Positions 3,882 to 29,414 of a stretch of 64,000 nucleotides of DNA are shown here, piece by piece (the stretch's first letter is position 1; each line of letters opens with the position of its first letter). The translations under genes were made by a program, and so were the position numbers. Source of the stretch: a virus; the IMG/VR virus record IMGVR_UViG_3300021197_000592, positions 1 through 64,000 of that record. One strand, given 5' to 3'. The notes beneath the pieces are model-generated. The model had not been told where the DNA came from and ran no database searches. It saw nothing but the letters and a program-made list of their open reading frames with translations.

Positions 3882-3883
3882 TG

Positions 3884-5792: not shown

Positions 5793-6055
5793 GTTGGAAA
5801 AATCTAGTTAAAATTGAAGATTATGATACTCTTTCCTATCTAACTAGAGAATCATTAGATTCACTTAAAGATTTAGAAAGACAGTTATTTGAAACAATAT
5901 ACAAGTTACAGTCAAGTAAACTAGGTAGTAACTTAAGGGATAAACCGGAATCAAACCTTGATTTCCAATTTCTTTTACAGTTCAAGAGGCAGTTGGGAGA
6001 ACTTCTGTATGACATTGAAAATCCTATGAGAGACTACGCGGAGAAATGGCAATGA
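5789..6055 (+). CDS. Trp-tag protein, 88 aa, with WQ C-terminus
   Basis: MSWKNLVKIEDYD start. An ATG two codons upstream (5783) is possible, but 5789 gives the ATGA overlap used by most neighbours. The body is helical and AT-rich compared with flanking genes, suggesting different ancestry. The tail ENPMRDYAEKWQ is shared with the previous gene. The junction DNA TGGCAATGAGTTGG is repeated identically at both ends of this gene. Confidence 0.7.
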   Translation: MSWKNLVKIEDYDTLSYLTRESLDSLKDLERQLFETIYKLQSSKLGSNLRDKPESNLDFQFLLQFKRQLGELLYDIENPMRDYAEKWQ

Positions 6056-6715: not shown

Positions 6716-8371
6716 ATGGCATGGGAGTCTTTGTTGAAAGTCAGGCGATTCTTGTCTGATGACGAAGTTAAGATTGCACATGCACTTATTGTGGCAAAGG
6801 CATCTGGTGACCCACTAGATTTGTCAGAATATGAAACACCAGAGAAGAAGAGAACCATCACTATGTTCACTAAGAAGATAGAGCGCGTTGAAGACAAGGA
6901 GTTTGAAGAGAAGTTCCAACAGGTAAAATGGAAGTTGGGAGACAAGGAAGACTACTTGAGAATGCTCAAAGAATATAGACAAACGCAACCTACCCCCAAA
7001 GAAATTGACAAACCGTATCTAAAAGATAAGATTGAGGACTTCTTAGAGGGAAACCACGATGGTCTTTTAGAATTGATAGAAAGGAGTAAAAGAAAGGGAT
7101 TAATTTCTGCTATTCAGAATTGGAATAAAGTCAACAATGATACCTTGAGGGAGTACGTCAAGGACAAGCCCGAACTCGCTGAGAAGATGAAGAAGGTGTT
7201 CAGGCAACTGGAATCATCTGAGGAGATGAAGAGGCAGGTGTCTCCTGCTTCGATTGGGGATGACGTTGCTGCGGAATATGTCAAGATGGTGGTGAATGAT
7301 TTGAAACTAGCATCTACTGGTAATGAGATGAGACTAGGAAAGGAGTCCTACTTGCCAATAAGAGAGGGGTTGTCTCCTAACTTCGCACGTAAGTTGTTTG
7401 GGTTGGGAGCGAATCAAGGAGGGAACCTCCCACCTGTAACCATGTATATTCTAGAGAATGACTCAGTTAACTTTGAGGAGTTCATGGCTGTTGCTGATAC
7501 AAAGTCAAGCACAGTCAAGGAGATGCTGTACAATAAACTCAGGCGAAGCGAGTTCGATAATGACATTCAAGAGGAATGGGATAGAAGCGAAAGCATTGTG
7601 TCGTTTGAGAATACGGTAGCGGCAGACAGGGAGATGAGCAAGGAATTCAAATCCATGTTGGCTAACTTGGGAGAAGGCATGAAAGTAGAGGATGTAACTA
7701 CAGATGTGAAATTCTCCATGCCGAAGGATGACTATGACAAGATGATGAGCGGAAAGTGGGATGAGTCCTTGGAGACATATGGGATAAACTCCGATGACGC
7801 ATTGGAGGACTTGTTGGATGTGCATGAGGAGGACTTGAAGAAACTACAGGAGAAGGTCAAGGGTTTCGTGAGGCTAGTTGACATGGAGACAAAGAAGAGG
7901 TTGGAGGACTCCGAACTCCTACAGGATGAGGGAATAGAACTCTGGAACAATGATGGCTCATTGAAGCAGATAACAACCGAGGAGACTGGTGAGAAGGCTT
8001 TCCCGAAATACCTGCAAACTCTTGCCGAGATAGACAATCCTACCAGAGCCGTATTCCTAGCCGCAGAGGGAAACAAGAACCAAGTGATGCTAGGAGACTT
8101 CATTCTCTACTTAGCAAGAGCAGAACTATCATATCAAGAAAGGACAAGTGATGTGAGAAGCGCGGTCAATGCCTATGCTAAAGAGCAAAGCGATGAGAAC
8201 AAGAAAAAACTAGATGACGAACTCTCCACTGCTAAGTACAAAGAGATTAGAAACGACATGCTACTAGCGATAAAGGAGAAGATGGCAACGCTTCTCAGTG
8301 AGTATGATACTAACATGTTGCACGAAAGAAAGACTATAGAACCGTTGGATTGGTTGAGGGAGAACATATGA
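6716..8371 (+). CDS. Large Trp-tag protein, helical, 551 aa
   Basis: Begins MAWESLLKVRRF (tag) and ends in PLDWLRENI, a tag-like C-terminus. The sequence is almost entirely predicted helix with many Glu/Lys/Leu heptad-like stretches and no catalytic motif I can see. With the next gene it forms a pair of large unknown proteins whose size and composition would suit internal or ejection proteins. That is inference. Confidence 0.75.
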   Translation: MAWESLLKVRRFLSDDEVKIAHALIVAKASGDPLDLSEYETPEKKRTITMFTKKIERVEDKEFEEKFQQVKWKLGDKEDYLRMLKEYRQTQPTPKEIDKPYLKDKIEDFLEGNHDGLLELIERSKRKGLISAIQNWNKVNNDTLREYVKDKPELAEKMKKVFRQLESSEEMKRQVSPASIGDDVAAEYVKMVVNDLKLASTGNEMRLGKESYLPIREGLSPNFARKLFGLGANQGGNLPPVTMYILENDSVNFEEFMAVADTKSSTVKEMLYNKLRRSEFDNDIQEEWDRSESIVSFENTVAADREMSKEFKSMLANLGEGMKVEDVTTDVKFSMPKDDYDKMMSGKWDESLETYGINSDDALEDLLDVHEEDLKKLQEKVKGFVRLVDMETKKRLEDSELLQDEGIELWNNDGSLKQITTEETGEKAFPKYLQTLAEIDNPTRAVFLAAEGNKNQVMLGDFILYLARAELSYQERTSDVRSAVNAYAKEQSDENKKKLDDELSTAKYKEIRNDMLLAIKEKMATLLSEYDTNMLHERKTIEPLDWLRENI

Positions 8372-10981: not shown

Positions 10982-11770
10982 ATGGCAGAGTTTCAGATTT
11001 CACCTCCATTGTCGGAAGATGAGGTCAAAGCGCGTTTTGCAGAACACGGCATAGACTACCAAACGAGAGCAGATAGATACCAGATGCTCACTAATACTCC
11101 CTTTGGTCAGGCCAATCCGAAGTATTACATTGCATACTACCCAACGGTAGAAGACGGTAAGCCAATTGCAGTTCAAGGAATCGCACCATACAAGAACGTC
11201 TATCTTCTAACTGGTTTGAAAAGCCACGCGAAGGAGTCTGGTCTTAGCAAAGAAGAGACAAGGGGTGCTGGTAGTTGGATATCAAACAAAGTAATTGACA
11301 TGCATAGTAACAGACCAATCGTAGGAGCGGCAAAACCAGCAGGTGTACCAGTTTTTGAACAACAGGGATTCAACCCCATACAATTTGACTCAAATAACAA
11401 GGTCATGAACCAAGATGATATCCCTGACGACATAAGAGAGGTCTTCACGATGTTGGAGAATGAAGGAAGTTCGACAACCGCAATCAGGAAACTATTCTAC
11501 AAACCAAGCATACAATGGTTCGCCCTAGTCAAAGCACAATGCAAGGGACCAACGAAGAAGACCAGTTCAACTTCCAAGGGCAAGAAGTGGATGAAGTGCG
11601 TCAGCAAACCCGGTGGAGGATACAAGCGAGTTCATTGGGGACAGAGGGGAGTAACAGTATCAGGCAAGAGGTCAGGCAAGAGGAGAAAGTCATTCAGGGC
11701 TAGACACAAATGTTCCACTTGCAAGGGTGGTGACAACTCCCCTAGATGCATGGCTTGTAGGGATTGGTGA
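10982..11770 (+). CDS. GNAT-like domain fused to marine-virus Cys motif, 262 aa
   Basis: Residues about 1-160 have the feel of a GNAT acetyltransferase fold: AVQGIAPYKNVYLLTGL, then GAGSWISNKVIDMH, then VPVFEQQGFNPI, as in beta5 and the C-terminal strand. The acyl-CoA loop is not convincing, so activity is uncertain. A tag-like IQWFALVKAQ at about 179-188 marks the domain boundary. The C-terminal part has KRRKSFRARHKC and CMACRDW, resembling a short conserved tail seen in marine phage proteins. Confidence 0.6.
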   Translation: MAEFQISPPLSEDEVKARFAEHGIDYQTRADRYQMLTNTPFGQANPKYYIAYYPTVEDGKPIAVQGIAPYKNVYLLTGLKSHAKESGLSKEETRGAGSWISNKVIDMHSNRPIVGAAKPAGVPVFEQQGFNPIQFDSNNKVMNQDDIPDDIREVFTMLENEGSSTTAIRKLFYKPSIQWFALVKAQCKGPTKKTSSTSKGKKWMKCVSKPGGGYKRVHWGQRGVTVSGKRSGKRRKSFRARHKCSTCKGGDNSPRCMACRDW

Positions 11771-11774
11771 TAGC

Positions 11775-12755
11775 ATGGAACTCTGGTTTGAGGACTTGAA
11801 GAAGAAGAAAGATGCTTGCTATCGCAAGGTCAGGAGCCGATACGACAAGTGGCCTTCTGCATATGCGTCAGGTGCGTTGGTACAGTGCCGAAAGGTCGGC
11901 GCAGCAAATTGGGGTAACTCAAAAAAAAAAGCATTGACCAAAGCAGAGTCAAAATGGGTAGATAAACTACCAGACGACAAGCAGAAACTTCTGGAAAAGA
12001 CTCCTAGTTTCGATGTGACATTCCCTGAGTATTCACATCCATCCAACGAGGAGGAACTCCCCAAGGTCATCGAGATGATGAAGGATAAGAAAATCGATGA
12101 GAGTGAGATAGAAGACCTAGACATGAACAACCATGAGATGATGTTGAAGATAGTCGGGGAGGAGATGGAAGATAGGGAGAAACTAATCGAGGACATCGAT
12201 ATCCACATAATCAAACTCAAGATGAAGTACAGAAGACCTAGACCGTATGAGATATCCGATAAGATAGAATCCATGACTAGCACGGATGACACACCGTCAT
12301 TCCCAAGTGGACATGCAACAGAATCGTATGCCCTTGCGAAGATACTAGGGAAGGAGCATCCCGATAAGCAGAAGGAACTCAATGAGATGGCAGAGAAGAT
12401 ATCCATGTCAAGGATACAGATGGGAAATCATTTCCCAAGTGATGTCGAGACTGGGAAGAAAGTCGGTGCATTGATTGCTGATGCGTATCTTGATTCGGAT
12501 AAAGTCAGTAAGAGTTGGCAGGAAGTAATATCCAAGGATTGGGTTAGTTGTTCGTCTTGCACAGATGACAAACCCGGAACAGAGCCTTGTGGTAGGAAGG
12601 ATGCATCAAAGGGACAGAAGAGAAGATGCAGACCGACTTGCTCTGCTTGTAGAGACTACAAGAGAAGGGGCGGAAAGCCGAAGAAAAGAAAGGCCGGAAC
12701 GTTCAGTAGAGAGAAGGACGAGGGGCTTCACGGTTGGTTCAAGAGGAGGGGTTGA
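11775..12755 (+). CDS. PAP2-superfamily phosphatase with flanking Cys motifs, 326 aa
   Basis: The three PAP2/haloperoxidase-type acid phosphatase signatures are complete and correctly ordered: K-x6-RP (K149 to P157), PSGH (177-180), and SR-x5-H-x3-D (S212, R213, H219, D223). No transmembrane segments are evident, so a soluble phosphatase is likely. The substrate is unknown. The N-terminus MELWFEDLKKKK is a tag variant. It is followed by CYRKVRSRYDKWPSAYASG, a motif I associate with many marine virus proteins. The C-terminus carries PCGRK...RRCRPTCSAC, another Cys module. Start 11775 is the first ATG after the upstream stop that gives the tag. Confidence 0.78.
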   Translation: MELWFEDLKKKKDACYRKVRSRYDKWPSAYASGALVQCRKVGAANWGNSKKKALTKAESKWVDKLPDDKQKLLEKTPSFDVTFPEYSHPSNEEELPKVIEMMKDKKIDESEIEDLDMNNHEMMLKIVGEEMEDREKLIEDIDIHIIKLKMKYRRPRPYEISDKIESMTSTDDTPSFPSGHATESYALAKILGKEHPDKQKELNEMAEKISMSRIQMGNHFPSDVETGKKVGALIADAYLDSDKVSKSWQEVISKDWVSCSSCTDDKPGTEPCGRKDASKGQKRRCRPTCSACRDYKRRGGKPKKRKAGTFSREKDEGLHGWFKRRG

Positions 12756-12818
12756 ATGAGTTGGTTCGACATCCTAAAAATAAGTGGACCGCCTAACATA
12801 TTCGGAGGTAAGGCCTGA
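12756..12818 (+). CDS. 20-aa peptide consisting mainly of the Trp tag
   Basis: This tiny ORF encodes MSWFDILKISGPPNIFGGKA. It starts on the base after the phosphatase stop, and its own stop overlaps the terminase start (TGATG). The first eight residues match the tag of the 182-aa protein at 19195 exactly. It could be a free tag peptide, a decayed gene, or a translational-coupling leader for the terminase. The exact tag and tight spacing make chance unlikely. Confidence 0.6.
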   Translation: MSWFDILKISGPPNIFGGKA

Positions 12819-14260: not shown

Positions 14261-14269
14261 GTGAATACA

Positions 14270-15604
14270 ATGGGAGAAAAAGGAGATAAACTCAGGGAGA
14301 TGGCTTCTCTCGCTGATGAGGAACAAACCCTAGTTGAAGAGCAGAAGAGGCTCTCTGACGAACTCAAGAGGTCTTGGTTATCAGAGCAGAACACGACCAA
14401 TCACTTTGACATAGAGAAGAAGTTCGCAGTAGAATATAGCATCTCCCTATCAGATGCCAAAAAGCAACTCAATGACGAGTTCAAGAAGTATGAGGTAGAG
14501 GGCAAGGACATTCCATCCCTCATCAAGGAACTCAAGGATTACCGAAGAACATTGAAAGGAGAGCAAAAGATAGCCATCACGGAATCGATTGACAATCTAA
14601 TCAAAGGATACGCATCTCATTTGGATAATACAATAGACAGAATATACTGGATTGCCAAGTACAAACCTGTAGTCAAGGAGATGGTTTGTTCCGAAGAGCA
14701 ACTAATCAAACTCTCATACATACATGACGAGAACACTAGAAGAGATGCGATTGATTCTCTATGCAAGTATTGGGAAGCCAAGTTGCATAGAGCAGATATA
14801 CCATATAACTCCGATTACTCATCCCTGTCGAAAGAAATGACAAATGGGAAGAGGGAGTTCAAGAAGATAATCAAGAATCATATGCCGAGCATCAGCCCGA
14901 AGGAGGTAATCAAACAAGAGATTCTTCACGCTGTCTGTGAGGAACCCGGCATATCGGCTAGACAGATTCATGAGAGACTACCGAAGAACCTGTTCAAGAA
15001 AACCTCGCCTAGTATAATTTCAAAGATGGCTAGGACTCAGAACATTACCACGATTGACGGTGCTTTCTACAAATTCAGTGATGAAATAAAGAAGGATATC
15101 TATGCATACACTGCCGCTTTCATAGACTCTGATGGATACATTACAATGGATAAAAACTTTAATCCAAGAGTCGGCCTAGTAGCAACAGGAGACAGGGGTA
15201 AGGCGTTCATGTTGGAGATGCACAAGTCCCTTGGGTGTGGTAGATTGCATCTAGACCAGAAATCCCCACAGGATACCAAACCTGTCAACAGACTAAACTT
15301 CTACTCTGCGGCGGATGTAAATGAGATTCTTACAAAATGCAAACCCTTCTTGAAGATGAAAGGAGCAAATGCAGACATACTATTGGAATTACTTAGAATG
15401 AAGAAGTCGCACAAGAAGGCAGAGTGGTACAAACCACGAAGGCAAGAGTTGTTTCAACTGATGAAGTACGAAAACCACAAAGACAATGCCAACTATGATT
15501 TTATTCAATATGGCATAGACAGAGACACAGTATCCAAATTCCATGAAAACTCTAAGATGACAGAGATGGATGTCATTGAAGGGGTCATAAAGACGGAGGC
15601 ATAG
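14270..15604 (+). CDS. Free-standing LAGLIDADG-type homing endonuclease with HTH
   Basis: The C-terminal half contains AYTAAFIDSDGYITM (about residues 277-291), a LAGLIDADG helix. It is followed by a typical alpha-beta core (RVGLVATGDRGKAFMLEM, KPFLKMKGANADILLELL). One copy is seen, so a dimer is expected. The N-terminal half is helical and contains a winged-helix-like segment (EEPGISARQIHERLPK) that may bind DNA. It sits between terminase and portal, a common site for such elements. ATG 14270 follows GGTGA by five bases; GTG 14261 is the alternative. Whether it still cuts is unknown. Confidence 0.8.
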   Translation: MGEKGDKLREMASLADEEQTLVEEQKRLSDELKRSWLSEQNTTNHFDIEKKFAVEYSISLSDAKKQLNDEFKKYEVEGKDIPSLIKELKDYRRTLKGEQKIAITESIDNLIKGYASHLDNTIDRIYWIAKYKPVVKEMVCSEEQLIKLSYIHDENTRRDAIDSLCKYWEAKLHRADIPYNSDYSSLSKEMTNGKREFKKIIKNHMPSISPKEVIKQEILHAVCEEPGISARQIHERLPKNLFKKTSPSIISKMARTQNITTIDGAFYKFSDEIKKDIYAYTAAFIDSDGYITMDKNFNPRVGLVATGDRGKAFMLEMHKSLGCGRLHLDQKSPQDTKPVNRLNFYSAADVNEILTKCKPFLKMKGANADILLELLRMKKSHKKAEWYKPRRQELFQLMKYENHKDNANYDFIQYGIDRDTVSKFHENSKMTEMDVIEGVIKTEA

Positions 15605-15605
15605 T

Positions 15606-17243
15606 ATGGCAGATGAAAAAAGAAGATTCAGAATAGGAAACCTATTTCGTAGGACAACTCCAAAACCAGCAGATAGAACAATATACAATCCGGGGATTCA
15701 GGAGAAGGACACATCGTATCTACTCACATCTCCTGTGATATACCACATAGCACAGCAATCAGTCATTGTCAGGACTTGCACTACTCAACTCAAGCAGGAG
15801 ATATTCAGAAGAGGATATCTGTGGGAAGAGAAATTCGTGAAGAGATGCAAAGACTGTGGTAAGGAACACCAGTCACCAGTTGAGCAATGTGTAGAGTGTG
15901 GCTCAATGAATCTAGAGAAGCCAAATCCACAACAACTGAAATACGCTCAGAAATTCCTAGGTGGCTACGTCAACAAATCAGAGCAGATGTTCATAGACGT
16001 ATTGAAGGAACTAGAGGATGACTTGAATATCATGGATGATGCATATCTTGTTATGGTGAAGGAATACTTCATAGATAACAACAACGAAATTCGTATGCAT
16101 CGAATCAAGGAGGTCTATCGTGGTGACCCCGTTTCAATGCACATCTATTCCAATGACACTGGTGAGAGAGGCAAAGGAGGATACATCTGTGTCAAACACA
16201 GGGACAGGATAGAAACAAGTCCCACTGGTCTTTGTGAAGAATGCAATTCCGAACTGCATCCTGTTCATTACGTGAACAGAGTCAAGGGAGAGGAACAGTA
16301 TTTCACGAAGGGTGAAGTGTTGCATTTCAGCAAATACTCACCCGGTAGGATGTACGGGCTATCACCAATCATAACGCTATGGAATCATGTTACGACTCTG
16401 ATAGCAATGGAGAACTACGTCAACTCATCATATACCAAGGCTAGAATGCCCAAGGGCCTACTAGCAGTGCAGACTAGGAACATCGATTCGATGAGGTCGT
16501 TTTGGCGAAGCGTCAAGGAGAAGATGGAGAAAGACCCACACTTCATTCCTGTGATGGGAATCGAAGCAGAAGGCGGTAAGGGTTCTGTCGAGTGGGTGAA
16601 GTTCATGGATAGCCTGAAAGAGATGGATTACATGTCTGTCAAGGATGACCTGAGAGATAGAATATCAGGGTTCTATGGAGTGAGCAAGGTATTCATGGCG
16701 GATAACTCTGCTAGTGGTGGGTTGAACAACGAGGGTATGCAGATACTCGTAACCAACCGAGCAGTCGAGATGGCTCAGACAATTTGGAACAACTATGTGT
16801 TCCCATTCATGACATCAGAGTTCGGTATAAGCGATTGGGAATTGAAACTACCACCATCCGAAGAGGAGGATGAGATTGCTAAACTGCGAAAGAGAGAGAT
16901 TGAGGTCAACGTAGCGGCGGCTATCAAGAATCTAGGGTTTGAGGTCAATATGGATGATGAGGGTAGATTCACCTACGTGAAGCCACCACAACCAGAAGAC
17001 CAACAACAAACAGATGACATCGAATTGGACCCATACGCTGGAACTAACATTGACCAATCACAACTCGGTCAGATGATGGAAACCGGAACTAGACCAACTG
17101 GCGAAGAAGCAGGTCAACCCGCGACTGTGAAAGGTAGAAACAAACCAAGCATGAGCGTTGGTCCCGACAAGAGATTCAGTGGTTTGCCAAGGGAAGCAGG
17201 GAATGAAAATGTCGATAGGCGTAGTGAGAGGCGGGTAGGTTGA
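15606..17243 (+). CDS. Portal protein with zinc-ribbon insertions
   Basis: This protein should form the dodecameric DNA channel at the capsid vertex. Portal hallmarks are LHFSKYSPGRMYGLSPI, the long helical stem region, and FYGVSKVFMAD before the C-terminal crown. Two Cys clusters are unusual: CKDCGKE...CVEC near residues 81-97, and CVKH...CEEC near 195-215. Each should hold a zinc ion. A Pro/Gln-rich disordered tail ends the protein. Position after terminase and length of 545 aa fit. Confidence 0.9.
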   Translation: MADEKRRFRIGNLFRRTTPKPADRTIYNPGIQEKDTSYLLTSPVIYHIAQQSVIVRTCTTQLKQEIFRRGYLWEEKFVKRCKDCGKEHQSPVEQCVECGSMNLEKPNPQQLKYAQKFLGGYVNKSEQMFIDVLKELEDDLNIMDDAYLVMVKEYFIDNNNEIRMHRIKEVYRGDPVSMHIYSNDTGERGKGGYICVKHRDRIETSPTGLCEECNSELHPVHYVNRVKGEEQYFTKGEVLHFSKYSPGRMYGLSPIITLWNHVTTLIAMENYVNSSYTKARMPKGLLAVQTRNIDSMRSFWRSVKEKMEKDPHFIPVMGIEAEGGKGSVEWVKFMDSLKEMDYMSVKDDLRDRISGFYGVSKVFMADNSASGGLNNEGMQILVTNRAVEMAQTIWNNYVFPFMTSEFGISDWELKLPPSEEEDEIAKLRKREIEVNVAAAIKNLGFEVNMDDEGRFTYVKPPQPEDQQQTDDIELDPYAGTNIDQSQLGQMMETGTRPTGEEAGQPATVKGRNKPSMSVGPDKRFSGLPREAGNENVDRRSERRVG

Positions 17244-17362
17244 GTCAACTGCTTGAAACCGCGAGAAGATGGAAAGAAGAGATTGACAAACTGAATAAAG
17301 AGACAGACGAGAGAATCAGATTATTTACGGAGGAAGGAATATGGAATGGCAAGAAATATTGA
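17240..17362 (+). CDS. Possible 40-aa coiled-coil peptide (TTG start)
   Basis: A TTG in a TTGA overlap with the portal stop opens a frame encoding a Glu/Lys/Arg-rich helix (LLETARRWKEEIDKLNKETD). It overlaps the next small ORF by 22 nt. Start type and overlap match other genes here, but the length makes it uncertain. Confidence 0.4.
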   Translation: MSQLLETARRWKEEIDKLNKETDERIRLFTEEGIWNGKKY

Positions 17363-17466
17363 AAAAAAATGCAAAGCCCGATTTTATTGACATCGATGGA
17401 GATGGTGATAAGGAAGAGCCAATGCAGGATGCAGTAAAAGACAAGAAAGGTGAAACAAATGAGTGA
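17341..17466 (+). CDS. Trp-tag micro-protein, 41 aa
   Basis: ATG 17341 follows GGAGGAAGG closely. The protein is MEWQEILKKNAKPDF followed by an acidic DIDGDGDKEEP stretch and a short charged tail. The tag is nearly canonical. The Asp repeat looks like half of an EF-hand loop but lacks the closing Glu at position 12. It overlaps the next gene by ATGAGTGA. Confidence 0.6.
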   Translation: MEWQEILKKNAKPDFIDIDGDGDKEEPMQDAVKDKKGETNE

Positions 17467-17687: not shown

Positions 17688-18875
17688 ATGTCATTCATGG
17701 ATATCCTCAGAAAGCAGGGTGAGGAAGTCCAATCTGACATATACGACTTGAAGGGAAACTTAACCCCCAAGCAATTGAGAGATGCGGCAGAGACATGGGA
17801 GAAGTACGGGGAGAACTTCGGTCCAAATCTGCTGACTCAACCAGCACCGCTGGAAGATAAGAGAGCAAGAGAAGGAGGAGACTTGAGAAACAATCCGGGT
17901 TTCATGGCCGATGCTACCAAAGCACTACAGATGATTGAGTCACTACCATCGGCTTCCACAGAAGAGGAGTTGATGTCTCCTGAATATCAAGCAAGAGGAG
18001 AGATAGAGGAAGTTCTAGAGATACTTCAAGAGAACTTCATCAAAGAAATAGAGAGAAGAGCAGGACAGAAGAAAACCTTCGTTAGTAGAAAGATGAATGC
18101 TGATAGCCTAGAGGAAATACTACGAATGGTTTCAAAGTTCAACAGTCCAGCAGAGATGGAAGAAAAGTTTCCGAACAAGAAGAAGTTCGCAAAGGAATGG
18201 TCTACACAGTTTGCAACATTCAAGGATAAGATAAACGAGTTCCTCTATCTAGGTGAGAGAATAGCACAGCCCGTTCGTGAGGTGTATCTAGAGAATCCAA
18301 TCAGACTCGCTAGGTTCGATGATGACAAGAAGGAATGGATGCAAGAGGATGAACTAGGATACAAGATGTACAATGGCAAGACATCCAAGGAAGTATGGGA
18401 AGACTTGCTGAACTTCTTGGGTATGGAAGCAATGACACCATACGACAAGAAAGAATCCAGAAGCCGATTAGAGAGATACGTTCGATTCGATGAGAGCAAC
18501 TTAGATGAACTATTCAATCTCATTAAAGAAGACAACTTGATGGAAGCATTTCCTGCTCTGTTTGAAGAATCATCATTCGATGACTTGGAGAGCGCATTAT
18601 ACTTACTTATAGAAGACGTAATGGAAATGCATGACGACTACTTGGATGCAGACGGAGAGGATGAAAAGATAGAGGAGAACATCGAGAAGTACCTCACAGC
18701 AATAGAGTTCCTGATGCATGTGTTTGAGATAACGAGAAGGGATGATTTCATCAACGATGGAGTTGTAAACGAACTCAAGGAGATAGAGGAACCAAGGCCA
18801 TTCCAGTTCCACAGGGAATTCAGAAACATAATAGAGGCCCATGATTTGTACGATGAAGAGGAGGAAGACGAGTGA
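17688..18875 (+). CDS. Trp-tag-like protein (Phe variant), 395 aa
   Basis: N-terminus MSFMDILRKQGEE is the tag with Phe in place of Trp. The body is long, acidic and helical, ending in DEEEEDE. No family is recognised. It overlaps the following gene by GTGA. It resembles the 551- and 869-aa proteins in composition, though I cannot show homology by eye. Confidence 0.72.
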   Translation: MSFMDILRKQGEEVQSDIYDLKGNLTPKQLRDAAETWEKYGENFGPNLLTQPAPLEDKRAREGGDLRNNPGFMADATKALQMIESLPSASTEEELMSPEYQARGEIEEVLEILQENFIKEIERRAGQKKTFVSRKMNADSLEEILRMVSKFNSPAEMEEKFPNKKKFAKEWSTQFATFKDKINEFLYLGERIAQPVREVYLENPIRLARFDDDKKEWMQEDELGYKMYNGKTSKEVWEDLLNFLGMEAMTPYDKKESRSRLERYVRFDESNLDELFNLIKEDNLMEAFPALFEESSFDDLESALYLLIEDVMEMHDDYLDADGEDEKIEENIEKYLTAIEFLMHVFEITRRDDFINDGVVNELKEIEEPRPFQFHREFRNIIEAHDLYDEEEEDE

Positions 18876-19198
18876 GTTGGCAAACAATCCTGAAAGCAAA
18901 TGGTCTAGTGGATAAACTTGACCCAAAGGAGAAGAAGAAGATAAAGAAACTCCTACAGTCTGCTCAACCGTCTGAGTTCATGGGTCAGGAGATAACGCAG
19001 TTGTCTGATTTGCTGACTGCGATGAAGGGTATTGGCTTGGTGAAGAACGACAAGAACATGCAGAAGAAGTTTGAGAAGTTCGATGAAAACAACTTAGACC
19101 TAGTTGCCACAGCATCCGAATTACGGAAGGACTATGAAACACTTTACAACCAGTTGAGAGCAGAGATTTATCCAAAGAAGAAGGGGAAGTTAGAATGA
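18872..19198 (+). CDS. Trp-tag protein, 108 aa
   Basis: GTG start in a GTGA overlap gives MSWQTILKANGL. The remaining sequence is helical, Lys-rich at the end (YPKKKGKLE) and unrecognised. The stop overlaps the ATG of the next tag gene. Confidence 0.72.
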   Translation: MSWQTILKANGLVDKLDPKEKKKIKKLLQSAQPSEFMGQEITQLSDLLTAMKGIGLVKNDKNMQKKFEKFDENNLDLVATASELRKDYETLYNQLRAEIYPKKKGKLE

Positions 19199-19743
19199 GT
19201 TGGTTTGACATACTAAAGTTGTATGGTAATGAAGACGATTATATTCCTGAAGCAATGCGTGAGTTACTTGAAGAGAACGAGTCGCTACAAGATAAATATG
19301 TTAGTTTCATGGATGAACTCAACTATGAGGTATATCAACTAGGAGAAAAAATGGCTAAGATAGCAGAGGAGGATAATCTCGATGATTATGCTACGAAAGC
19401 CATTGACAAGTATATGAACATGAATGTAACTGGCGGTGAACACTTTGAGGATGTATACCAATCAGTCTCAGATGAATACTATACAAGGAAAAGGGATGCA
19501 GGGGAAGAGGAAGACTCAGCCCCTCAACTTGAGTATGGTAATAAGAACCAAAAAACATTAGAAGCCTTAGAAGATTTCCAAGGTCAGTATTATGAAAACG
19601 AATGGACTGATTATCGAACAAACAGAGAGTTGTCTGCATTAATGGCGGCAGTAAGTCGTGGCGATACTGATAATCTAGAAGGAGAATTCCCTGAAGCATA
19701 CCTTATTTTTAATGAAGCCGGACTACTTAATGAGTTGGAGTGA
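19195..19743 (+). CDS. Trp-tag protein, acidic, 182 aa
   Basis: Canonical tag MSWFDILKLYGNEDD. The body is acidic and helical with several Tyr residues, and no enzyme motif is visible. This gene and the next two are more AT-rich than the surroundings, consistent with separate acquisition. Confidence 0.72.
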   Translation: MSWFDILKLYGNEDDYIPEAMRELLEENESLQDKYVSFMDELNYEVYQLGEKMAKIAEEDNLDDYATKAIDKYMNMNVTGGEHFEDVYQSVSDEYYTRKRDAGEEEDSAPQLEYGNKNQKTLEALEDFQGQYYENEWTDYRTNRELSALMAAVSRGDTDNLEGEFPEAYLIFNEAGLLNELE

Positions 19744-19748
19744 TTGAA

Positions 19749-20078
19749 ATGAGTTGGAAAGATATAATCAAAAATGAAAGAGGGTTCTACACTGACAAAG
19801 AGAATGCCAAGGAGAAAGCAAAGAGCCTACCGAGGATGAAGAAAGAGTTGGATAAAACACTTACAGAATTGAAAATGCTTGTAGATGAAATAGGCGGAGA
19901 CGAAATGGATAAAATGTTCGATGGCCCTGATGGTCAAGAGGTAGGAAGCACTACTCAACTGATGGAAGACTTCAATGAGTTCAAGAAAAAGGTTGAAGAT
20001 GCATATGAGGATGCTTTAATATTTAACACTCAACTTGCAGAAATGTCATTTAATGAAGCAAGGTATGGTAGGCGATGA
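19749..20078 (+). CDS. Trp-tag protein, 109 aa
   Basis: Tag MSWKDIIKNERGF. A start three codons upstream (19740) is possible but would hide the tag. The start context TGATTGAAATGAGTTGG recurs in related form at neighbouring genes. Lys/Glu-rich helical body, unrecognised. Confidence 0.7.
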   Translation: MSWKDIIKNERGFYTDKENAKEKAKSLPRMKKELDKTLTELKMLVDEIGGDEMDKMFDGPDGQEVGSTTQLMEDFNEFKKKVEDAYEDALIFNTQLAEMSFNEARYGRR

Positions 20079-20079
20079 A

Positions 20080-20583
20080 ATGAGTTGGCAAGATATCCTG
20101 AAAGACATGGATGCAGAAGAGGAATTTGAGAGAGATGCTCTAAGAAGAGATATTGAAGCGGAGCGATATTCAGAGTCCTATCAAAGCCCTAATTTCAAAA
20201 AGGTTGAAGAGAAGTTGAGGGAGTTAGTGAATATCACTATTCCACAAGATGAGCGAATGTTACAAATTGTAATGAGTGCAGGATTCAAAGAACCACCAGT
20301 CACTAGACAACAACTAACATCTGCTACAAGGAAGATTTATCAAGATTTGAAAGAACTTGATAAGATAAAGAAAGAAGCCAAGGAGTATGCAGATAAAAAC
20401 CCAAAATCCGGTCCTTACGATGACGAATTGATTAATGATGTGTTTAAGGATTCAAATTCAGAATACGCTACTGATAGGGGTTTTGAAATGTTAATGGGTA
20501 ATAAAATTGAAGATATACGCTTAGGCTTCGCTAACACGATAACGAGCAACATGCAACAATACAAGCAATTGTTTGAAAAGTGA
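20080..20583 (+). CDS. Trp-tag protein, 167 aa
   Basis: Tag MSWQDILKDMDAEEE. The open frame extends 15 codons upstream into the previous gene, but the tag and one-base spacing after the preceding stop favour 20080. Helical, charged, no known family. Confidence 0.72.
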   Translation: MSWQDILKDMDAEEEFERDALRRDIEAERYSESYQSPNFKKVEEKLRELVNITIPQDERMLQIVMSAGFKEPPVTRQQLTSATRKIYQDLKELDKIKKEAKEYADKNPKSGPYDDELINDVFKDSNSEYATDRGFEMLMGNKIEDIRLGFANTITSNMQQYKQLFEK

Positions 20584-20588: not shown

Positions 20589-20663
20589 ATGAACATGAAA
20601 GGAACACTAAAAAGAAATCTTAAGGAAAAACTAAATGAGTTCAGGAAGGAGGAAGAGGCATGA
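20589..20663 (+). CDS. Possible 24-aa basic peptide
   Basis: ATG 20589 follows the same TGATTGAA context used by neighbours and encodes MNMKGTLKRNLKEKLNEFRK plus a short acidic end. It terminates in an overlap with the next ATG. It could be a leader for coupling or a truncated tag gene, with TLKRNL loosely resembling the tag core. Confidence 0.4.
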   Translation: MNMKGTLKRNLKEKLNEFRKEEEA

Positions 20664-20893
20664 GTGACGAGAAGAACGAGATGCTACTGCTCCTGAAAGA
20701 ACTGGTTGGCAAGGTGAAATCCTTGGAAGAGGTCGTTTATCAGAAAGATAATCTACTGATGAAGAGTGGACTTGTTGTAGTCGATAGTCCACGACCAGCA
20801 ATAAGCAACGAACAATCAGGAATGTCAGGAGACACAATAGCGAAGATGGACTGGTCAGAAATCAATCAAATCATAGAGACAATAGAGGGATAG
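20660..20893 (+). CDS. Small coiled-coil protein with C-terminal Trp motif, 77 aa
   Basis: The N-terminal third is a leucine-rich heptad helix (LLLLKELVGKVKSLEEVV), likely oligomerising. The C-terminus KMDWSEINQIIETIEG resembles the scaffold C-terminus (ISWSDIHNIVERYQ) in spacing of Trp, acidic and hydrophobic positions. It may be a small scaffold or accessory protein. That is inference. Confidence 0.65.
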   Translation: MSDEKNEMLLLLKELVGKVKSLEEVVYQKDNLLMKSGLVVVDSPRPAISNEQSGMSGDTIAKMDWSEINQIIETIEG

Positions 20894-20894: not shown

Positions 20895-21290
20895 ATGGCA
20901 AACTGGCAAAACTTATTGAAAGTTGACATTCGCAATCCTCAATTCAAAGAGTTACTGGATTCGCTTCCTCCTAAAGCGCGAAAAGAAATTGAATCGAGGA
21001 TGAAAGACCGTGATAGTAGTGAGGACAGCGTAAAGTATAACCTTCAAGTAGAGGGACTTCTAAGTGACCCTAAAGTAGAATCTATGCGAAATGAACTTGA
21101 ATCAATGAAAGAAAAAATGGATGATAAAGCATCTAAGTTGATGAGGTATATGTGGGATAACGACAAGAATCCTGTAGACTCGGATGACCCTGAAGTGGAT
21201 AGATTCGGCCCCGGATTCAAAGCCTCAGAGATACTAGGAAAAGAGATTAACGAGATACAAAGAGAATTTGGTGGATATAAACCGTGGTGA
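20895..21290 (+). CDS. Trp-tag protein, 131 aa
   Basis: Starts MANWQNLLKVDIRN, the tag shifted by one residue. Helical, acidic, no family recognised. It is the last clear N-terminal tag before the ligase and capsid genes. Confidence 0.7.
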   Translation: MANWQNLLKVDIRNPQFKELLDSLPPKARKEIESRMKDRDSSEDSVKYNLQVEGLLSDPKVESMRNELESMKEKMDDKASKLMRYMWDNDKNPVDSDDPEVDRFGPGFKASEILGKEINEIQREFGGYKPW

Positions 21291-21556: not shown

Positions 21557-24199
21557 ATGCCTCGTTCTGGTCTAGCATTTGAGAAGGAAGAAGACGGACT
21601 CACTAAGAGAGTCCTTGATTTCTTTGAGCGCACCAGATTCGCATACCTCTCAGCAAAGGCAGACCCATCTGAGTATGGGAAGAAATGGAAGGACATCGTC
21701 AAGAAGATTCGTGAGGACTTCGACCAGATGAGCAACTTCGCTCAGGAGTTGAAGGAGTACGTCACTGAGAAGATTCTGTTCGATGATGATGTCTATGATG
21801 CCAAGTCGGGAACTGCCGAGACTCTGTTCAAGGAAATAAAGGAGATGAGATTCAAGTCGGAGAAGATAAGCGACCCCTTCTCCAAGTTGCTAGGTGATGA
21901 TGTCATTGACACATTCATGGAGAAGCCTGACATCTTCATATCATTCATCCATTATGCGATGCGCTCCCATTCCAACAAGATGCCTGACAAGATATACGAG
22001 TCACAGAAACTCAAGCCCGACCAGATAACTCAGGGAACGATGGGACTTGACTTGAAGGTAGAAGACATTCCACTTTACATCATAGAGCATTACGGAGCAG
22101 AGGGGAAGGACACTCGTAGGGTAAAGAGCAAGTTCAAGTCGTCATTCTCTAGATTGAAGGAGATGTACAACGAGACTTACCCGGAGGACAAGTGGGATGC
22201 TCTCGTTGACTTGGATGTTGTGAAAGCGGAGAAGAGCGAGGAGGAGAAGCAGGAAGTTGACTTCCTCATACCCAACAAGCCGATGTATCGAATCTTTGAG
22301 ACTGATGACTTGAAGCAACTCAAGGGATTCAGTGGTGAGTGGCTCGTTCAGGAGAAGTACGATGGGATGCGAATACAGATTCACAAGGATGGAGACAGCA
22401 TCAAGATATACTCATTCAACAAGAAGGACATCACGGATAAGTGTCCATTGCAAGTCAAGGAGATGGAGAAGAAGAACTTCGGTGACTGCATACTCGATGC
22501 TGAACTCACCCTATTCCTAGAAGATGAGCCATTGCATCGTGCTGATACTGTGGCACATGTGTTCAAGAAGGAAACGAAGGGAAGGCTATCTGCTCACGTT
22601 TTCGACATCATGAAGCATGAGGGCAAGATGATTGCCGATGAGCCACTGAGGGAAAGAGTGAACATTCTCTTCTACCAGTACAGTTCTCATTCCACTGAGA
22701 ATCTAGCATTCCCATCCAAGAAGGACACAAGAATAGCAGACTCAATCAAGGAGGTCGAGGACTACTCTAAGGTGATAATGGAACTACCATCATCAGAGGG
22801 AGTCGTAATCAAGGACATAGAATCCACATACATCATAGGAAAGCAGAAGAATCCTAAGTGGATAAAATGGAAGAAGTTTGTTGACTTGGATGTCGTAGTA
22901 TTGGATTCCAAGAAGACTGCTAGTGGACTCTTCTCTTACACTATGGGAATAGGGCCAGTAAATGCTGAGACAGCAAGAACCTACAAGACCACTGAACTAG
23001 GAGATAAAGCATATCTTTCAGTTGGGAAGGCATTGAACACTAAGGAAAAGGTGGATGTCGGTGATATAGTCAGAGTCAAGGTAGACGAAGTGAAGAAAGG
23101 CAAGGATGGTTTCAGTCTCTATTCGGCCAAGGTTATCGAGATACCAGAGGTAACGGAGTCTGACAAGGTAGAAACTCTAGAGCAACTATCAACCAAGACC
23201 AAGAAATCTCTTGACTCGGCTATAGAGTTCATTGCTGGTAAAGCAGTTGGTGATAGATTCAAAGTGATGAGTGGAGTTCAAAATGCTGCTAAAGCAAAGA
23301 CTGCTGCTGATATCGCTAGAGATAAGAAGAAGAAGAAGGTCAAGAAAGGGTATTACATCACGGATGACATACACGGTACTGCTGAGATAATACTCAAGTC
23401 AGACCTAGATGGGTTTACCATCTACGGTTTCAGCGGTGATGACCTGATGCAGAAGAATGCTCTGTACAACATAGACATCTGGAAGGAGCAAGTTACTGAG
23501 ATACTCAAAACAAAGAGGTCAGAACTGAGGGTTGGAATAAGAAACGATATCATTGAGCATGGTGATGACCCCAAGCCATTCGACAAGATACTGGATTTCG
23601 TAGAAGAACACTACAAGGACACCTACGAAGAACTGTTTGAGATGAAGCCTGACAAACTCATGTCATGGTTGAAGAGACAAGAGGACATACAGTACGTTCA
23701 CCCGAACAAGTTCCAAGCAAGAGATGACGTTCTTGAGAAAGACATTGAAGAGTTGAAAAAAAAAGACACTCCTAACCAAGGTAAATTCAAGTTGTTCCAA
23801 CGTGAAGACGGAAACATAGACTTCGTAATCAGAGCAGGTGGGGAGAAGATGGCTTGGACAATAGACATAGAAGACACAGAGGATGTGTTCAATCTGTTCG
23901 GGAAGTCTGGTAAGTTCCCTGCAATTGTGGCAACTACTGTAAATGAAGAGAAACTACTAGATGCAGGTGACTTGGAACTAGGAGTTCAGAAGGATGGATA
24001 TCATGAGTATAGGTTGGATGGTGATAAGTTCCAGACCAGAATGCACGTGCGAGTTGTTCCATTGGATGAGCAAAAAACATGGTTGGCTTGGACCGGAAAG
24101 AAACAAGAGATGTTAGACAAGACAGATGATGACGGAGTATGGATGATATCAGAAGATAAGTATGCTGATTTGCCATTTCCCAAGAAAAATAGCGAGTAG
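21557..24199 (+). CDS. ATP-dependent DNA ligase with long C-terminal extension
   Basis: Joins nicks using ATP through a lysyl-AMP intermediate. The nucleotidyltransferase domain has motif I EKYDG with the adenylated Lys at 267, motif III-like AHVFDIM, motif IV EGVVIKD and motif V PKWIKWKK, followed by an OB-fold. An all-helical region of about 200 residues precedes it, as in archaeal/eukaryal ligase I. The protein is 880 aa, some 300 longer than typical. The extra C-terminal part includes a beta-rich section (NIDFVIRAGGEKMAW to TWLAWTGKK) vaguely like a LigD phosphoesterase barrel, without clear catalytic residues. Confidence 0.9.
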   Translation: MPRSGLAFEKEEDGLTKRVLDFFERTRFAYLSAKADPSEYGKKWKDIVKKIREDFDQMSNFAQELKEYVTEKILFDDDVYDAKSGTAETLFKEIKEMRFKSEKISDPFSKLLGDDVIDTFMEKPDIFISFIHYAMRSHSNKMPDKIYESQKLKPDQITQGTMGLDLKVEDIPLYIIEHYGAEGKDTRRVKSKFKSSFSRLKEMYNETYPEDKWDALVDLDVVKAEKSEEEKQEVDFLIPNKPMYRIFETDDLKQLKGFSGEWLVQEKYDGMRIQIHKDGDSIKIYSFNKKDITDKCPLQVKEMEKKNFGDCILDAELTLFLEDEPLHRADTVAHVFKKETKGRLSAHVFDIMKHEGKMIADEPLRERVNILFYQYSSHSTENLAFPSKKDTRIADSIKEVEDYSKVIMELPSSEGVVIKDIESTYIIGKQKNPKWIKWKKFVDLDVVVLDSKKTASGLFSYTMGIGPVNAETARTYKTTELGDKAYLSVGKALNTKEKVDVGDIVRVKVDEVKKGKDGFSLYSAKVIEIPEVTESDKVETLEQLSTKTKKSLDSAIEFIAGKAVGDRFKVMSGVQNAAKAKTAADIARDKKKKKVKKGYYITDDIHGTAEIILKSDLDGFTIYGFSGDDLMQKNALYNIDIWKEQVTEILKTKRSELRVGIRNDIIEHGDDPKPFDKILDFVEEHYKDTYEELFEMKPDKLMSWLKRQEDIQYVHPNKFQARDDVLEKDIEELKKKDTPNQGKFKLFQREDGNIDFVIRAGGEKMAWTIDIEDTEDVFNLFGKSGKFPAIVATTVNEEKLLDAGDLELGVQKDGYHEYRLDGDKFQTRMHVRVVPLDEQKTWLAWTGKKQEMLDKTDDDGVWMISEDKYADLPFPKKNSE

Positions 24200-24229: not shown

Positions 24230-25444
24230 GTGTTAGCAACAACAGGAGTATTATTGAAAGCAGAAACTGATGCCGAATTCAGCATTCTAAAATCAGATAA
24301 TCTAGTCATTGGAGGGTATGCATCTATAGAAATTGTAGACAAGCAAAACGACCTAATAACACTAGAAGCATTGGAAGAAGCAGTCAATAAATACATGGAA
24401 GAAGAAAAATACAGAAATGTAATGTCAAATCATTCAAATGTTCAAGTCGGGGAGGTCGTAGAAAAATATCGAGATTCAAACGGTGTCTTACACAAAACAG
24501 GTGTAGATGACGTTGGATTCTATGTAGTAATCAAGATGCGCGATGACATCGAGAAGGCTAAGGAAATCTCAAGAGGTATTAGAAAAGGAACTCTACGGTC
24601 ATTTAGTATAGGTGGACAAGCAATATCAAAGAGACAGAGAAAATCTGAGGAGTTCGGGGAATACAACGAGATAGAAAAACTTGAGTTGCATGAAGTTACT
24701 GTCTGTGAAAAAGGAATAAACCCGGAAGCGAAATTCGACATTTTAAAAATGGAGGAAAAAAATATGAGTGAAAAACTGGAAAAAGCCCTAGAGGAGTTGA
24801 ACAGCCTGATGAAGCAGGTCAATTCGCTCCGAAAGGAAGAAGAAAAAGAAGAAATGGAGAAAGGTGACATGTCAGAGATGATGGACACTGAAGAAATGAT
24901 GATGACCGAGGATGAGAAGATGGGCGGCGAGATGAAAGCCGATGACGATGAAGACATGGAGGAGAAGGCTCTTGATGAAGATTCAACAAGAGACTTTGAG
25001 GCCGGTGAGGAAGTCGTTAGCGGTGGCAACCCCGTTGCAACACCTGCTCCTCTAAAGGTATCAAAGGGATTGGAGAACGCTGATTTCTCTACTCTCGACC
25101 TAACTGTGGAGAATGTCGAAAAGGCATATGAAGCATTCAAGGCCGAGAAGTTAGAGGCAATGGCGTATGATTCCCTTAACAAAGAATTCAGTACCCGTCT
25201 AGAGGCAGAACTATCCGTAAAGAAATCAGTCGCAGAGAGAGCAGAGTACGATGCTCGCAACGATGTGGCTGCTCTTAAGGAAGAGTTCGCTGAACTACGC
25301 AAGTCTCTTTCGGCAGAAAGCGATGAGATAAAGAAGGCAAAGGAAGTTGCATTTGAGATACCAGAAGGCATCCCAAGCAACCTACAAGAGGCTTCTGAGA
25401 TTTCATGGAGTGACATTCACAATATTGTGGAGAGGTATCAGTGA
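24230..25444 (+). CDS. Prohead protease fused to scaffold
   Basis: Residues about 1-170 match the HK97/XkdF-type prohead protease: GYASIEIVDKQNDLI, a conserved His in VMSNHSN (H68), and the serine region LRSFSIGG (S126), then LHEVTVCEKGINPEAKF. Residues from 179 form an acidic coiled coil typical of a scaffold or delta domain, which the protease should remove during maturation. The C-terminus ISWSDIHNIVERYQ probably contacts the capsid protein. FDILK occurs at 173-177, echoing the Trp tag core. GTG start with GGTGAT upstream. The gene lies immediately before the capsid gene. Confidence 0.85.
   Translation: MLATTGVLLKAETDAEFSILKSDNLVIGGYASIEIVDKQNDLITLEALEEAVNKYMEEEKYRNVMSNHSNVQVGEVVEKYRDSNGVLHKTGVDDVGFYVVIKMRDDIEKAKEISRGIRKGTLRSFSIGGQAISKRQRKSEEFGEYNEIEKLELHEVTVCEKGINPEAKFDILKMEEKNMSEKLEKALEELNSLMKQVNSLRKEEEKEEMEKGDMSEMMDTEEMMMTEDEKMGGEMKADDDEDMEEKALDEDSTRDFEAGEEVVSGGNPVATPAPLKVSKGLENADFSTLDLTVENVEKAYEAFKAEKLEAMAYDSLNKEFSTRLEAELSVKKSVAERAEYDARNDVAALKEEFAELRKSLSAESDEIKKAKEVAFEIPEGIPSNLQEASEISWSDIHNIVERYQ
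24764..25444 (+). CDS. Probable nested scaffold protein (internal in-frame start)
   Basis: Met179 of the protease-scaffold gene is preceded by GGAGG at 24751-24755 with eight bases of spacing, better than the outer start. Translation from here would give a 226-aa scaffold without the protease, MSEKLEKALEELNSLMKQ onward. Lambda C/Nu3 and similar systems use the same nested arrangement. Confidence 0.6.
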   Translation: MSEKLEKALEELNSLMKQVNSLRKEEEKEEMEKGDMSEMMDTEEMMMTEDEKMGGEMKADDDEDMEEKALDEDSTRDFEAGEEVVSGGNPVATPAPLKVSKGLENADFSTLDLTVENVEKAYEAFKAEKLEAMAYDSLNKEFSTRLEAELSVKKSVAERAEYDARNDVAALKEEFAELRKSLSAESDEIKKAKEVAFEIPEGIPSNLQEASEISWSDIHNIVERYQ

Positions 25445-25455: not shown

Positions 25456-26826
25456 ATGAGCAATGGACATATTAGAACAATAACAGACCTAGAAGCCAGC
25501 ACCTATGGCATGGTCGGAGGAACAGGGAACGCCCTGCTGAAGTCAGCAGGAGTAGTTGGAGGATTTGGAACCCCGCACGACAATTCGGGCAACAACTTCA
25601 GCGGTGCAAGTGGGCTTGGTGACCTATACAACTTGCTATACGGACAGAAAGTCTGGTCAATGCTAAATCAGGAAGTCAACGCACTGTCGATGATTTCCAA
25701 GAGGCCATACACTTCCAGTGGTTGGAGGGTTCTCAAGAGCCGACCTGCTGGTGGTAGTGGAAACGCATTCGCGGTTGGTACACAAGACCCCGGTGCAACT
25801 ACGGCTGACCTATCTGGAATATCCGCAGACAAGATTGGTGGTGTTGGAGAGAACGCAGTGCTTGGAGGAGATGCTTCATTCAGAGCATTGTCTCCTGAGT
25901 ACACGAAACTCTACGTCAGTCCAAAGACTGTGGCACACCTCTTTGAGTTCTCTGAACTCGGAATGGAGTTGGCTGCAATCGATGACGGTGTTGGTGACAT
26001 ACGCTCCATAGTCCGTGAGGACATGGGTAAGCACCACGCAGAGGTTCAGAACAAGATGCTTCTGATGCCACTAGAGTTCTACGACAAGGCAGAGTATGAC
26101 GAGATTGAGGAGAACTACACTTCTCTATTGAAGATAGTCTCGTCTGCCGGTGAACTTGCTGCAATGGGTGACGCAGATATGGGTGAGCAGAGTGCTGCCG
26201 CCGCAACACTGCCAGTCACACAGACCAAGATTTTCGGTGCAACCAGAACTGTCGCTAACAGCAGTGGTGACTACACTGGTACTGAGGACTTCCTCTCAGC
26301 AGAGGTTGACTTCGGTGCAGGATATGCCGCTGGTAACGCAAGGGTTCTAACCCTGACCCTCCTAAACGACATGATTAGGAGAATCAGGCAGAACGGAGGT
26401 AACCCCAAGGTCATGATTACTGGATACGATACTATCCAGCACATCTCTGACCTACTACAGAGCCAAGAGAGGTTCATGGACAGGAAGGAAATCGTACCTA
26501 CCCACAACGGAGTTCGTGGAGTAAAGGGTGCAGAGGTCGGATTCAGAGTTGCAACATACTATGACATCCCACTGATTCCAGCCAAGGACATGACACAGAC
26601 TGGTAATGCGACTGCAAACAAGTTGAGTGACATACTCATCCTAGACACTGACCACCTGTGGCTATCTGTAATGAAGCCGACTCAGTATTTCGAGAACGGT
26701 ATCACCAACGGTGACCCATTCGGGGTCGGAAAACTTGGGAACCAAGGCATGTACCGCACAATGGGCGAGACAGGCTGTTCGTTCTTCAAGGGTCAAGGAA
26801 AGATTACCAACATAACGAGTGCGTGA
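25456..26826 (+). CDS. Major capsid protein (HK97-like)
   Basis: The 456-aa protein follows the protease-scaffold gene, as expected for the capsid subunit. The N-terminal 60 residues are Gly/Ser-rich and flexible. The core has typical beta and helix segments such as YTKLYVSPKTVAHLFEFSE and DIPLIPAKDM, and ends in MGETGCSFFKGQGKITNI. Assignment rests on order, length and general character. ATG with GAGGTGAT five bases upstream suggests strong translation. Confidence 0.82.
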   Translation: MSNGHIRTITDLEASTYGMVGGTGNALLKSAGVVGGFGTPHDNSGNNFSGASGLGDLYNLLYGQKVWSMLNQEVNALSMISKRPYTSSGWRVLKSRPAGGSGNAFAVGTQDPGATTADLSGISADKIGGVGENAVLGGDASFRALSPEYTKLYVSPKTVAHLFEFSELGMELAAIDDGVGDIRSIVREDMGKHHAEVQNKMLLMPLEFYDKAEYDEIEENYTSLLKIVSSAGELAAMGDADMGEQSAAAATLPVTQTKIFGATRTVANSSGDYTGTEDFLSAEVDFGAGYAAGNARVLTLTLLNDMIRRIRQNGGNPKVMITGYDTIQHISDLLQSQERFMDRKEIVPTHNGVRGVKGAEVGFRVATYYDIPLIPAKDMTQTGNATANKLSDILILDTDHLWLSVMKPTQYFENGITNGDPFGVGKLGNQGMYRTMGETGCSFFKGQGKITNITSA

Positions 26827-28742: not shown

Positions 28743-29414
28743 TTGTCAGTAATGGCAGGATTTGCCATATTGATTGTCGAGGGACTTAACAAGATATACC
28801 AGAGAATACATGCAATTAACTTTGGAATATACGGTGCAAGTCAAGCGGGGAAGACAACATTGAATCACCAGTTGAGAACAAGGGGTGAGGTTCCGGATAT
28901 TCGACATAGGACAGAGGGATTGCAACGTGCAAGTAGGAAGTACGTCAAACTAGATGGAGATGCACATACAGTCAAGACGGCTGACTTAGGAGGACAGACG
29001 GTCTATTGGCAAGAGTGGATTAAGGACATGAAAGAGAGGAAAGTGAAGTATGTCATATTCATGATTGACGATAGACACATGAACAAGCATTATGACATCG
29101 AACAGCAATTGTGTTGGACGTTCCTAGTAGATACAATCTGTGAACCATATTGGCATCACAATGGTAAGAAGAAGAAAAAGAGGGAGGCAGATTACCCAAT
29201 TGCAGTGTCAATATGGGCTAACAAATATGACTTGTGGAAGGATAGGTATGAACACGATGGACCGATAGAAAGCCATCCTATTTTCGCCGCATTCAGAGAA
29301 GGAATGCAGAAGTTAAACGACAAGGGAATACCCTGTCACAAGTACATTGTAAGTGCCAAATCTGACTCGGAGATGGTTTACAGGGGTGTCCTAACAATGA
29401 TAAAGGACTACTAG
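28743..29414 (+). CDS. Arf/SR-beta-like small GTPase, 223 aa
   Basis: G1 is GASQAGKTT (31-39). G3 is DLGGQ (81-85), the GGQ form typical of Arf, SR-beta and G-alpha proteins rather than Ras. G4 is NKYD (160-163) and G5 is SAK (204-206). Thr57 in RHRTEG may be the switch I residue. A hydrophobic N-terminal helix (MAGFAILIVEGL) could bind a membrane, as in Arf. A Lys run (GKKKKKR) at 141-147 is an insertion. TTG 28743 follows GGTGAT; ATG 28752 is the alternative. Such a GTPase among virion genes is unexpected. Confidence 0.82.
   Translation: MSVMAGFAILIVEGLNKIYQRIHAINFGIYGASQAGKTTLNHQLRTRGEVPDIRHRTEGLQRASRKYVKLDGDAHTVKTADLGGQTVYWQEWIKDMKERKVKYVIFMIDDRHMNKHYDIEQQLCWTFLVDTICEPYWHHNGKKKKKREADYPIAVSIWANKYDLWKDRYEHDGPIESHPIFAAFREGMQKLNDKGIPCHKYIVSAKSDSEMVYRGVLTMIKDY

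Follow-up and report, generated by a model that had tools for sequence, protein, structure and literature searches.

In T4, the capsid targeting sequence (CTS) is an N-terminal stretch of 10 to 20 residues; it associates with the scaffolding core, is cut off by the gp21 protease, and is all that is conserved among the diverse internal proteins (PMC3012670, PMC5694885). In phage P1, the N-terminal signal of DarB is enough for a reporter to be taken into the capsid (PMC9024508), and in encapsulins short peptides load cargo into an HK97-fold shell (PMC8346489, PMC10960027). Scaffolds dock through their ends as well: in herpesviruses, pUL26 and pUL26.5 attach to the major capsid protein by their C-termini (PMC4498786), and the coat-binding part of the P22 scaffolding protein is a C-terminal helical segment (PMC9962691).

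We analyzed a window of 64,000 nucleotides taken from a virus record of 98,438 bases. Here, a tag with the consensus M-S-W-x-D-I-L-K, mostly N-terminal and sometimes C-terminal or between domains, is carried by many unrelated proteins, and its core recurs at the C-terminus of the protease-scaffold. The likeness to the T4 CTS of IPI to IPIII and Alt is that a short signal, thought to direct proteins to the procapsid, is all that unrelated proteins have in common in a virus with a prohead protease. Unlike the CTS, the present tag also lies at C-termini and between domains, marks far more families, and has a core that recurs in the scaffold tail. A conserved short sequence on unrelated proteins was found, as in T4; the strictly N-terminal position was not, and we do not class the tag as a member of the T4 type. 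Our best reading, by analogy, is that it would work like the CTS; no sequence homology is claimed. For the Dar proteins of P1 no consensus has been found, whereas one strict consensus serves all tagged proteins here. Encapsulins have few dedicated cargo types and lack a scaffold, whereas the present virus has many unrelated tagged proteins and a virus head. With the herpesviruses the locus shares a protease-scaffold fusion, a likely internal start yielding the scaffold alone, and a C-terminal motif; the protease is of family S78 here and S21 in herpesviruses, which are not known to have a family of cargo proteins with the scaffold's motif. The likeness to P22 lies in a C-terminal helical segment on a mostly helical scaffold, which in P22 is a charged helix-turn-helix, whereas the present tail would be a single short helix with W and I as its anchors.

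The major capsid protein (MCP) and protease match those of Druskaviridae haloviruses at 23 to 31%. Druskaviridae, the nearest cultured group, are without tag and tail; both were looked for in the haloviral relatives HVTV-1 and HCTV-1, and neither was found. Magroviruses are about 90-kb relatives of haloviruses (PMC10160649). Judged by the published description, the present lineage is probably that of the magroviruses, tailed viruses of marine group II archaea, and the viruses with tag and tail make up a large tailed-virus family whose hosts are probably marine archaea. In the haloviruses (L136:14230-23018 and L135:14831-24561; HVTV-1 and HCTV-1), several proteins encoded between the portal and protease genes share V-Y-[IV]-x-x-P-x-E-A-P-...-G-G-Y-Y-Y, a module that is perhaps the counterpart of the tag. 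A literature search for the tag sequences found no paper, and a scan of a genome collection gave a single locus (L149), in a bin titled Maricaulis sp., which is probably a misbinned virus contig.

The tag sites in the window are as follows.

579-596, + strand: tag-like WFTVLR in protein 504-767
1861-1878, + strand: C-terminal tag WRTIMK of protein 730-1890, C-terminal in homologues too
2126-2143, + strand: tag WFETIK in the C-terminal region of protein 1943-2200
2201-2224, + strand: tag MSWFEILK, N-terminus of protein 2201-2689, with a second tag, WFEQLK, at its C-terminus (2669-2686)
2694-2717, + strand: tag MNWMTVLK
3878-3910, + strand: tag MMMAWFDLVRK
5427-5453, + strand: tag MNWKDILLK
5783-5812, + strand: tag MAMSWKNLVK
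6046-6093, + strand: tag ...KDWFNVLK
6716-6739, + strand: tag MAWESLLK
11516-11533, + strand: internal tag WFALVK at a two-domain junction
11784-11801, + strand: weak tag WFEDLK close to the beginning of PAP2 phosphatase 11727-12755 (PF01569, E=1.1e-11), homologues of which are tagged too
12756-12818, + strand: 20-codon ORF MSWFDILKISGPPNIFGGKA, overlapping the terminase and directly upstream of it; a probable remnant of a tagged gene, with a 273-aa counterpart at L090:9027-9845
17341-17364, + strand: tag MEWQEILK of a small ORF
17688-17714, + strand: tag variant MSFMDILRK (F replaces W)
18872-18895, + strand: tag MSWQTILK, of the most widespread tagged family
19195-19218, + strand: tag MSWFDILK
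19740-19772, + strand: tag MIEMSWKDIIK
20080-20103, + strand: tag MSWQDILK
20895-20921, + strand: tag MANWQNLLK

We gathered 207 distinct N-terminal M(x)W starts without conditions on later positions; in this set, +2 was D, N or E in 76%, +3 was I or V in 82%, +4 was L, I or V in 96% and +5 was K in 90%. The 305 distinct tagged proteins of near relatives fell into 117 clusters without detectable mutual similarity. Alignment of 93 tagged cluster representatives gave MSWxDILK as essentially the sole consensus, and 75 representatives from a divergent set and tag-rich records again had essentially the tag alone in common. The tag is mobile as a unit: a basic domain that stands alone in a relative (L341) starts with the tag MWFDTLK, and the window fuses a domain of this type behind another domain, retaining the tag WFALVK at the junction. 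Searches with a reversed pattern gave 0 matches over multiple genomes and 1 match in the window's own record, where the pattern was looser. A blind DNA search of viral contigs with the tag returned mostly records that belonged to this lineage or were rich in tags, and it reached relatives with capsid proteins as little as 50% identical; the tag already serves as a search key for distant relatives. A DNA-level origin, in which the tag would reflect a shared start region, was ruled out because its codons vary and tags also lie C-terminally and internally. Neighboring tagged proteins at L345 4929-7373 and 17698-18393 and at L346 14132-16270 have N-termini that resemble one another ([LMN]WW[DE]ILK...GKAKGKG), as if a gene family had expanded locally.

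Tagged proteins are confined almost entirely to the head block, that is, the genes upstream of the capsid gene. Over ten genomes, 92 of 299 proteins in this block were tagged, compared to 5 of 806 elsewhere (p=9e-51, for genomes that are kin and not independent), and the co-oriented morphogenesis genes downstream contained a single tagged member among 243. This distribution bears on the proposal that the tag is unrelated to the head and serves late or accessory proteins in the host cell as an address or regulatory motif, through a host factor, localization or turnover, the genes merely sharing the head transcription unit. Most tagged proteins have no recognized function, and their presence in the virion is something we infer, which leaves room for such a role. 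However, the near absence of tags outside the head block, the downstream genes included, speaks against it, as does the core that the tag has in common with the tails of the scaffold and of a 77-aa protein, and we consider the proposal improbable.

The scaffold gene, its tail and the capsid gene are arranged as follows.

24230-25444, + strand: protease-scaffold gene (404 aa), with a Peptidase_S78 domain, acidic linker, long helix and C-terminal docking motif
25400-25441, + strand: scaffold C-terminal motif ISWSDIHNIVERYQ, a class II tail of 14 codons (W codon at 25406-25408; stop at 25442-25444)
25456-26826, + strand: major capsid protein, the presumed receptor (PF17236 SU10_MCP, E=2.5e-8; phrog_24667, major head protein)

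The Pfam match to Peptidase_S78 (PF04586, E=1.6e-9) covers residues 26-179 and is followed by a helical scaffold, the order of a protease-scaffold; the SU10-type MCP gene comes next. The first-pass annotation had assigned the scaffold end to 25403-25444; the motif ISWSDIHNIVERYQ is there, beginning one codon earlier. The protease-scaffold is directly preceded, here and in most of the relatives that were examined, by an ATP-dependent DNA ligase gene (21557-24199), and the ligase has a weak tag-like KKWKDIVKK near residue 44.

The tail is strongly conserved. Its W is kept in 80 of 80 nearest relatives, in 20 further loci and in all 18 divergent loci with a readable scaffold (MCP identity down to 50%), and every relative read has W-x-[DE]-[ILV] at the end of its scaffold, following a linker rich in indels. 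When 30 scaffolds were aligned, W was the sole invariant residue past proline 369, with deletions in the linker before it. Divergent scaffolds, from viruses reached by the DNA search with the tag, end in AEMDWSDIHKMVGG, HEMSWDEINELVRELQ, SEMSWEELNDLVSEVQG and similar sequences.

A second protein has a tail of the same kind.

20660-20893, + strand: 77-aa coiled-coil protein, possibly a second scaffold or core protein, with 58 homologues that have the same kind of tail
20846-20890, + strand: the 77-aa protein's class II tail, MDWSEINQIIETIEG, which covaries with the scaffold tail

The coiled-coil nature of this protein was judged by eye. Its ending, MDWSEINQIIETIEG, is the one reported before, and the ORF translations bear out that ISWSDIHNIVERYQ and MDWSEINQIIETIEG both match W-x-[DE]-I-x-x-[IV].

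The likeness between tails and tag was scored with a profile built from N-terminal tags only (positions -1 to +3) and run over ten genomes. Interior windows scored at least as high as the scaffold tail in 9 of 205,362 cases and as the 77-aa tail in 60 of 205,362, giving chance figures of about 5e-4 (for a 16-residue end) and 3.5e-3, which are upper bounds because some of the scoring windows are internal tags, and which are weakened by the many protein ends that were open to choice in the first reading. Among 1,230 other proteins, only one had a C-terminus scoring like the scaffold's, and that C-terminus is itself a tag. Tail conservation is independent support for the likeness, beyond these chance figures. 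The earlier suggestion that the scaffold end resembles the tag thus holds for the W-x-[DE]-I core; it does not extend to positions +4 and +5, which differ, and the two do not covary.

Two motif classes could be distinguished, and both were seen in all clades. Tags read W-x-[DEN]-[IV]-[LIV]-K, whereas the tails of the scaffold and the 77-aa protein read W-x-[DE]-I-[HN]-x-[LIM]-[VA]. Position +4 is L, I or V in tags and mostly H or N in tails; K at +5 is near-invariant in tags, and a hydrophobic pair occupies +6 and +7 in both tails. The difference tracks the role of the protein and not the position in the chain, because C-terminal tags keep the tag form (WADILK, WRTIMK).

Within a virus, the scaffold and 77-aa tails covary: identity over +4 to +7 was 1.66 to 1.70, compared to 1.21 expected. 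The p value was 0.001 to 0.002 at 80 to 85% dereplication (20 to 24 clusters) and 0.03 at 75% (10 clusters), values that lean optimistic because the sequences are related; at 70%, the 3 clusters left were too few for any statement. Such covariation is what two ligands of a single receptor would show, and these sequence data suggest that the two tails probably share one receptor. A different origin for their likeness would be that the 77-aa protein arose from the scaffold, as a duplicate that diverged or as a fragment, and that both resemble the tag by chance. The two do have the same tail class and both seem to be coiled coils, the scaffold helix by modelling and the 77-aa protein by eye. Yet common origin alone leaves the extra resemblance of tails from the same virus unexplained, and both tails match the tag beyond chance, so that we regard this origin as very improbable.

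Covariation of the tags with the scaffold tail or with the 77-aa tail was also tested within viruses, and none was found. The core of the tag may vary too little to reveal any, or the tag may bind elsewhere. The latter would be the case if the tag targets proteins to the procapsid through a different receptor, such as the scaffold core, the portal or another core protein, its likeness to the tails being limited convergence on a W-x-D-I helix. The absent covariation and the two distinct classes across all clades are in agreement with this reading, as is T4, where internal proteins become associated with the core through the CTS (PMC5694885). Against it, the four-residue core, preceded by M-S in many scaffold tails as in the tag, is closer than chance would give; the scaffold tail of divergent clades, MDWSDIHK, departs from the tag mainly at +4; and one group of 77-aa homologues ends in a sequence, TMSWEDIHKMVEK, that scores as a tag. 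A separate receptor therefore seems to us rather unlikely, if by no means far-fetched.

Structure models were examined for the scaffold of a relative. Modelled alone, it reached a pLDDT of 47 overall, with only a long helix (residues 284-365) fairly confident at mostly 67 to 85; after a break, a short helix (384-393) was modelled on the motif at 57 to 69. A read-through fusion of the relative's scaffold and capsid protein gave a pLDDT of 38, too low for use, and the pLDDT of the tail did not rise with the capsid protein attached, both models being poor. Searching solved structures with capsid and scaffold profiles returned no matches. A conserved C-terminal helix, of low confidence, thus follows a variable linker; the shared core, the conservation and this low-confidence helix behind the long helix are as expected of a coat-binding scaffold end.

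We propose that the tag is a procapsid-loading signal in which the scaffold tail's docking core is put to a second use, and we put the chances of this explanation as a whole at about even. The scaffold C-terminus would be a short docking helix, most likely the part that holds the capsid protein by its inner face while the procapsid assembles, and the similar tail of the 77-aa protein would probably dock on the same site. The tag would be a second form of this core, related to the first and carried by many unrelated proteins; it would draw them into the assembling procapsid, bringing them inside the head and, with the DNA, into the host. Against the explanation stand the differences between tags and tails at +4 and +5, the absent covariation of tags with tails (not decisive, since tags vary so little), the poor quality of both models, and the lack of tag and tail in the nearest cultured group, Druskaviridae. 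That tag and scaffold tail use the same or an overlapping pocket is plausible, a little short of an even chance. Only tentatively do we go further, to a single pocket of the HK97-fold capsid protein serving the scaffold tail, the small core protein and more than 100 unrelated tagged proteins: a universal cargo-loading code in which eight residues, at any tag position, recruit almost any protein.

If the proposal is right, an eight-residue address label would define the cargo of widespread uncultured ocean viruses, and many proteins per genome that lack an assigned function would gain a predicted place in the head, possibly with delivery alongside the DNA. Cargo loading would be tied to the scaffold's own docking site, a connection that in T4 is known only loosely, and a ready-made loading peptide would become available for HK97-type shells.

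Two further features lie at the boundary between protease and scaffold.

24734-24748, + strand: FDILK (residues 169-173), where the protease domain ends; inside the S78 match and invariant
24751-24766, + strand: internal ribosome-binding site GGAGG (24751-24755) and in-frame ATG (24764-24766), just past FDILK

FDILK had been numbered 173-177 and listed with the tag evidence. Its position is 169-173, and we rejected it as a tag. The S78 protease fold ends in this sequence, which is constant in relatives and lies within the Pfam match, and its place is taken by KAKFGVVSK in the proteases of the tagless haloviruses (a correspondence drawn by eye). A Shine-Dalgarno-like sequence precedes an in-frame internal start at this domain boundary in 98 of 98 loci, and this arrangement makes an internal start probable, with a scaffold-only protein as its predicted product.

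Nearly all tagged proteins are without known domains. The exceptions are GNAT domains, a marginal S-adenosylmethionine (SAM) lyase match in one protein, and PAP2 phosphatases, which occur in several viruses; several small tagged proteins are highly basic. The SAM lyase match (E=3.5e-6, just under the Pfam cut-off) is in L346:5784-7253, a protein that also has a weak GNAT match and the internal tag WFDLVK. SAM lyases are known anti-restriction enzymes, a role that would suit delivery alongside DNA, and from its sequence the L346 protein is a candidate delivered anti-restriction protein.

Other genes of the window were noted in passing. The portal protein (15606-17243) contains paired CxxC zinc-ribbon-like segments (roughly residues 81-98 and 195-213) that relatives have too. 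An ORF between terminase and portal (14261-15604) has, by eye, a LAGLIDADG-type endonuclease-like segment, AAFIDSDGYI..., found at the same place in relatives. Further downstream, a small GTPase-like protein (28743-29414; weak SRPRB/Arf matches) is kept in the morphogenesis module of the relatives compared and is preceded by short, possibly membrane-associated ORFs at 28009 and 28514. Finally, the protein encoded by 49555-59343 (3,262 aa) has many DDAVTSAKIADD-like repeats, and its end, by eye, is like a self-cleaving fibre chaperone; it is probably the tail fibre.
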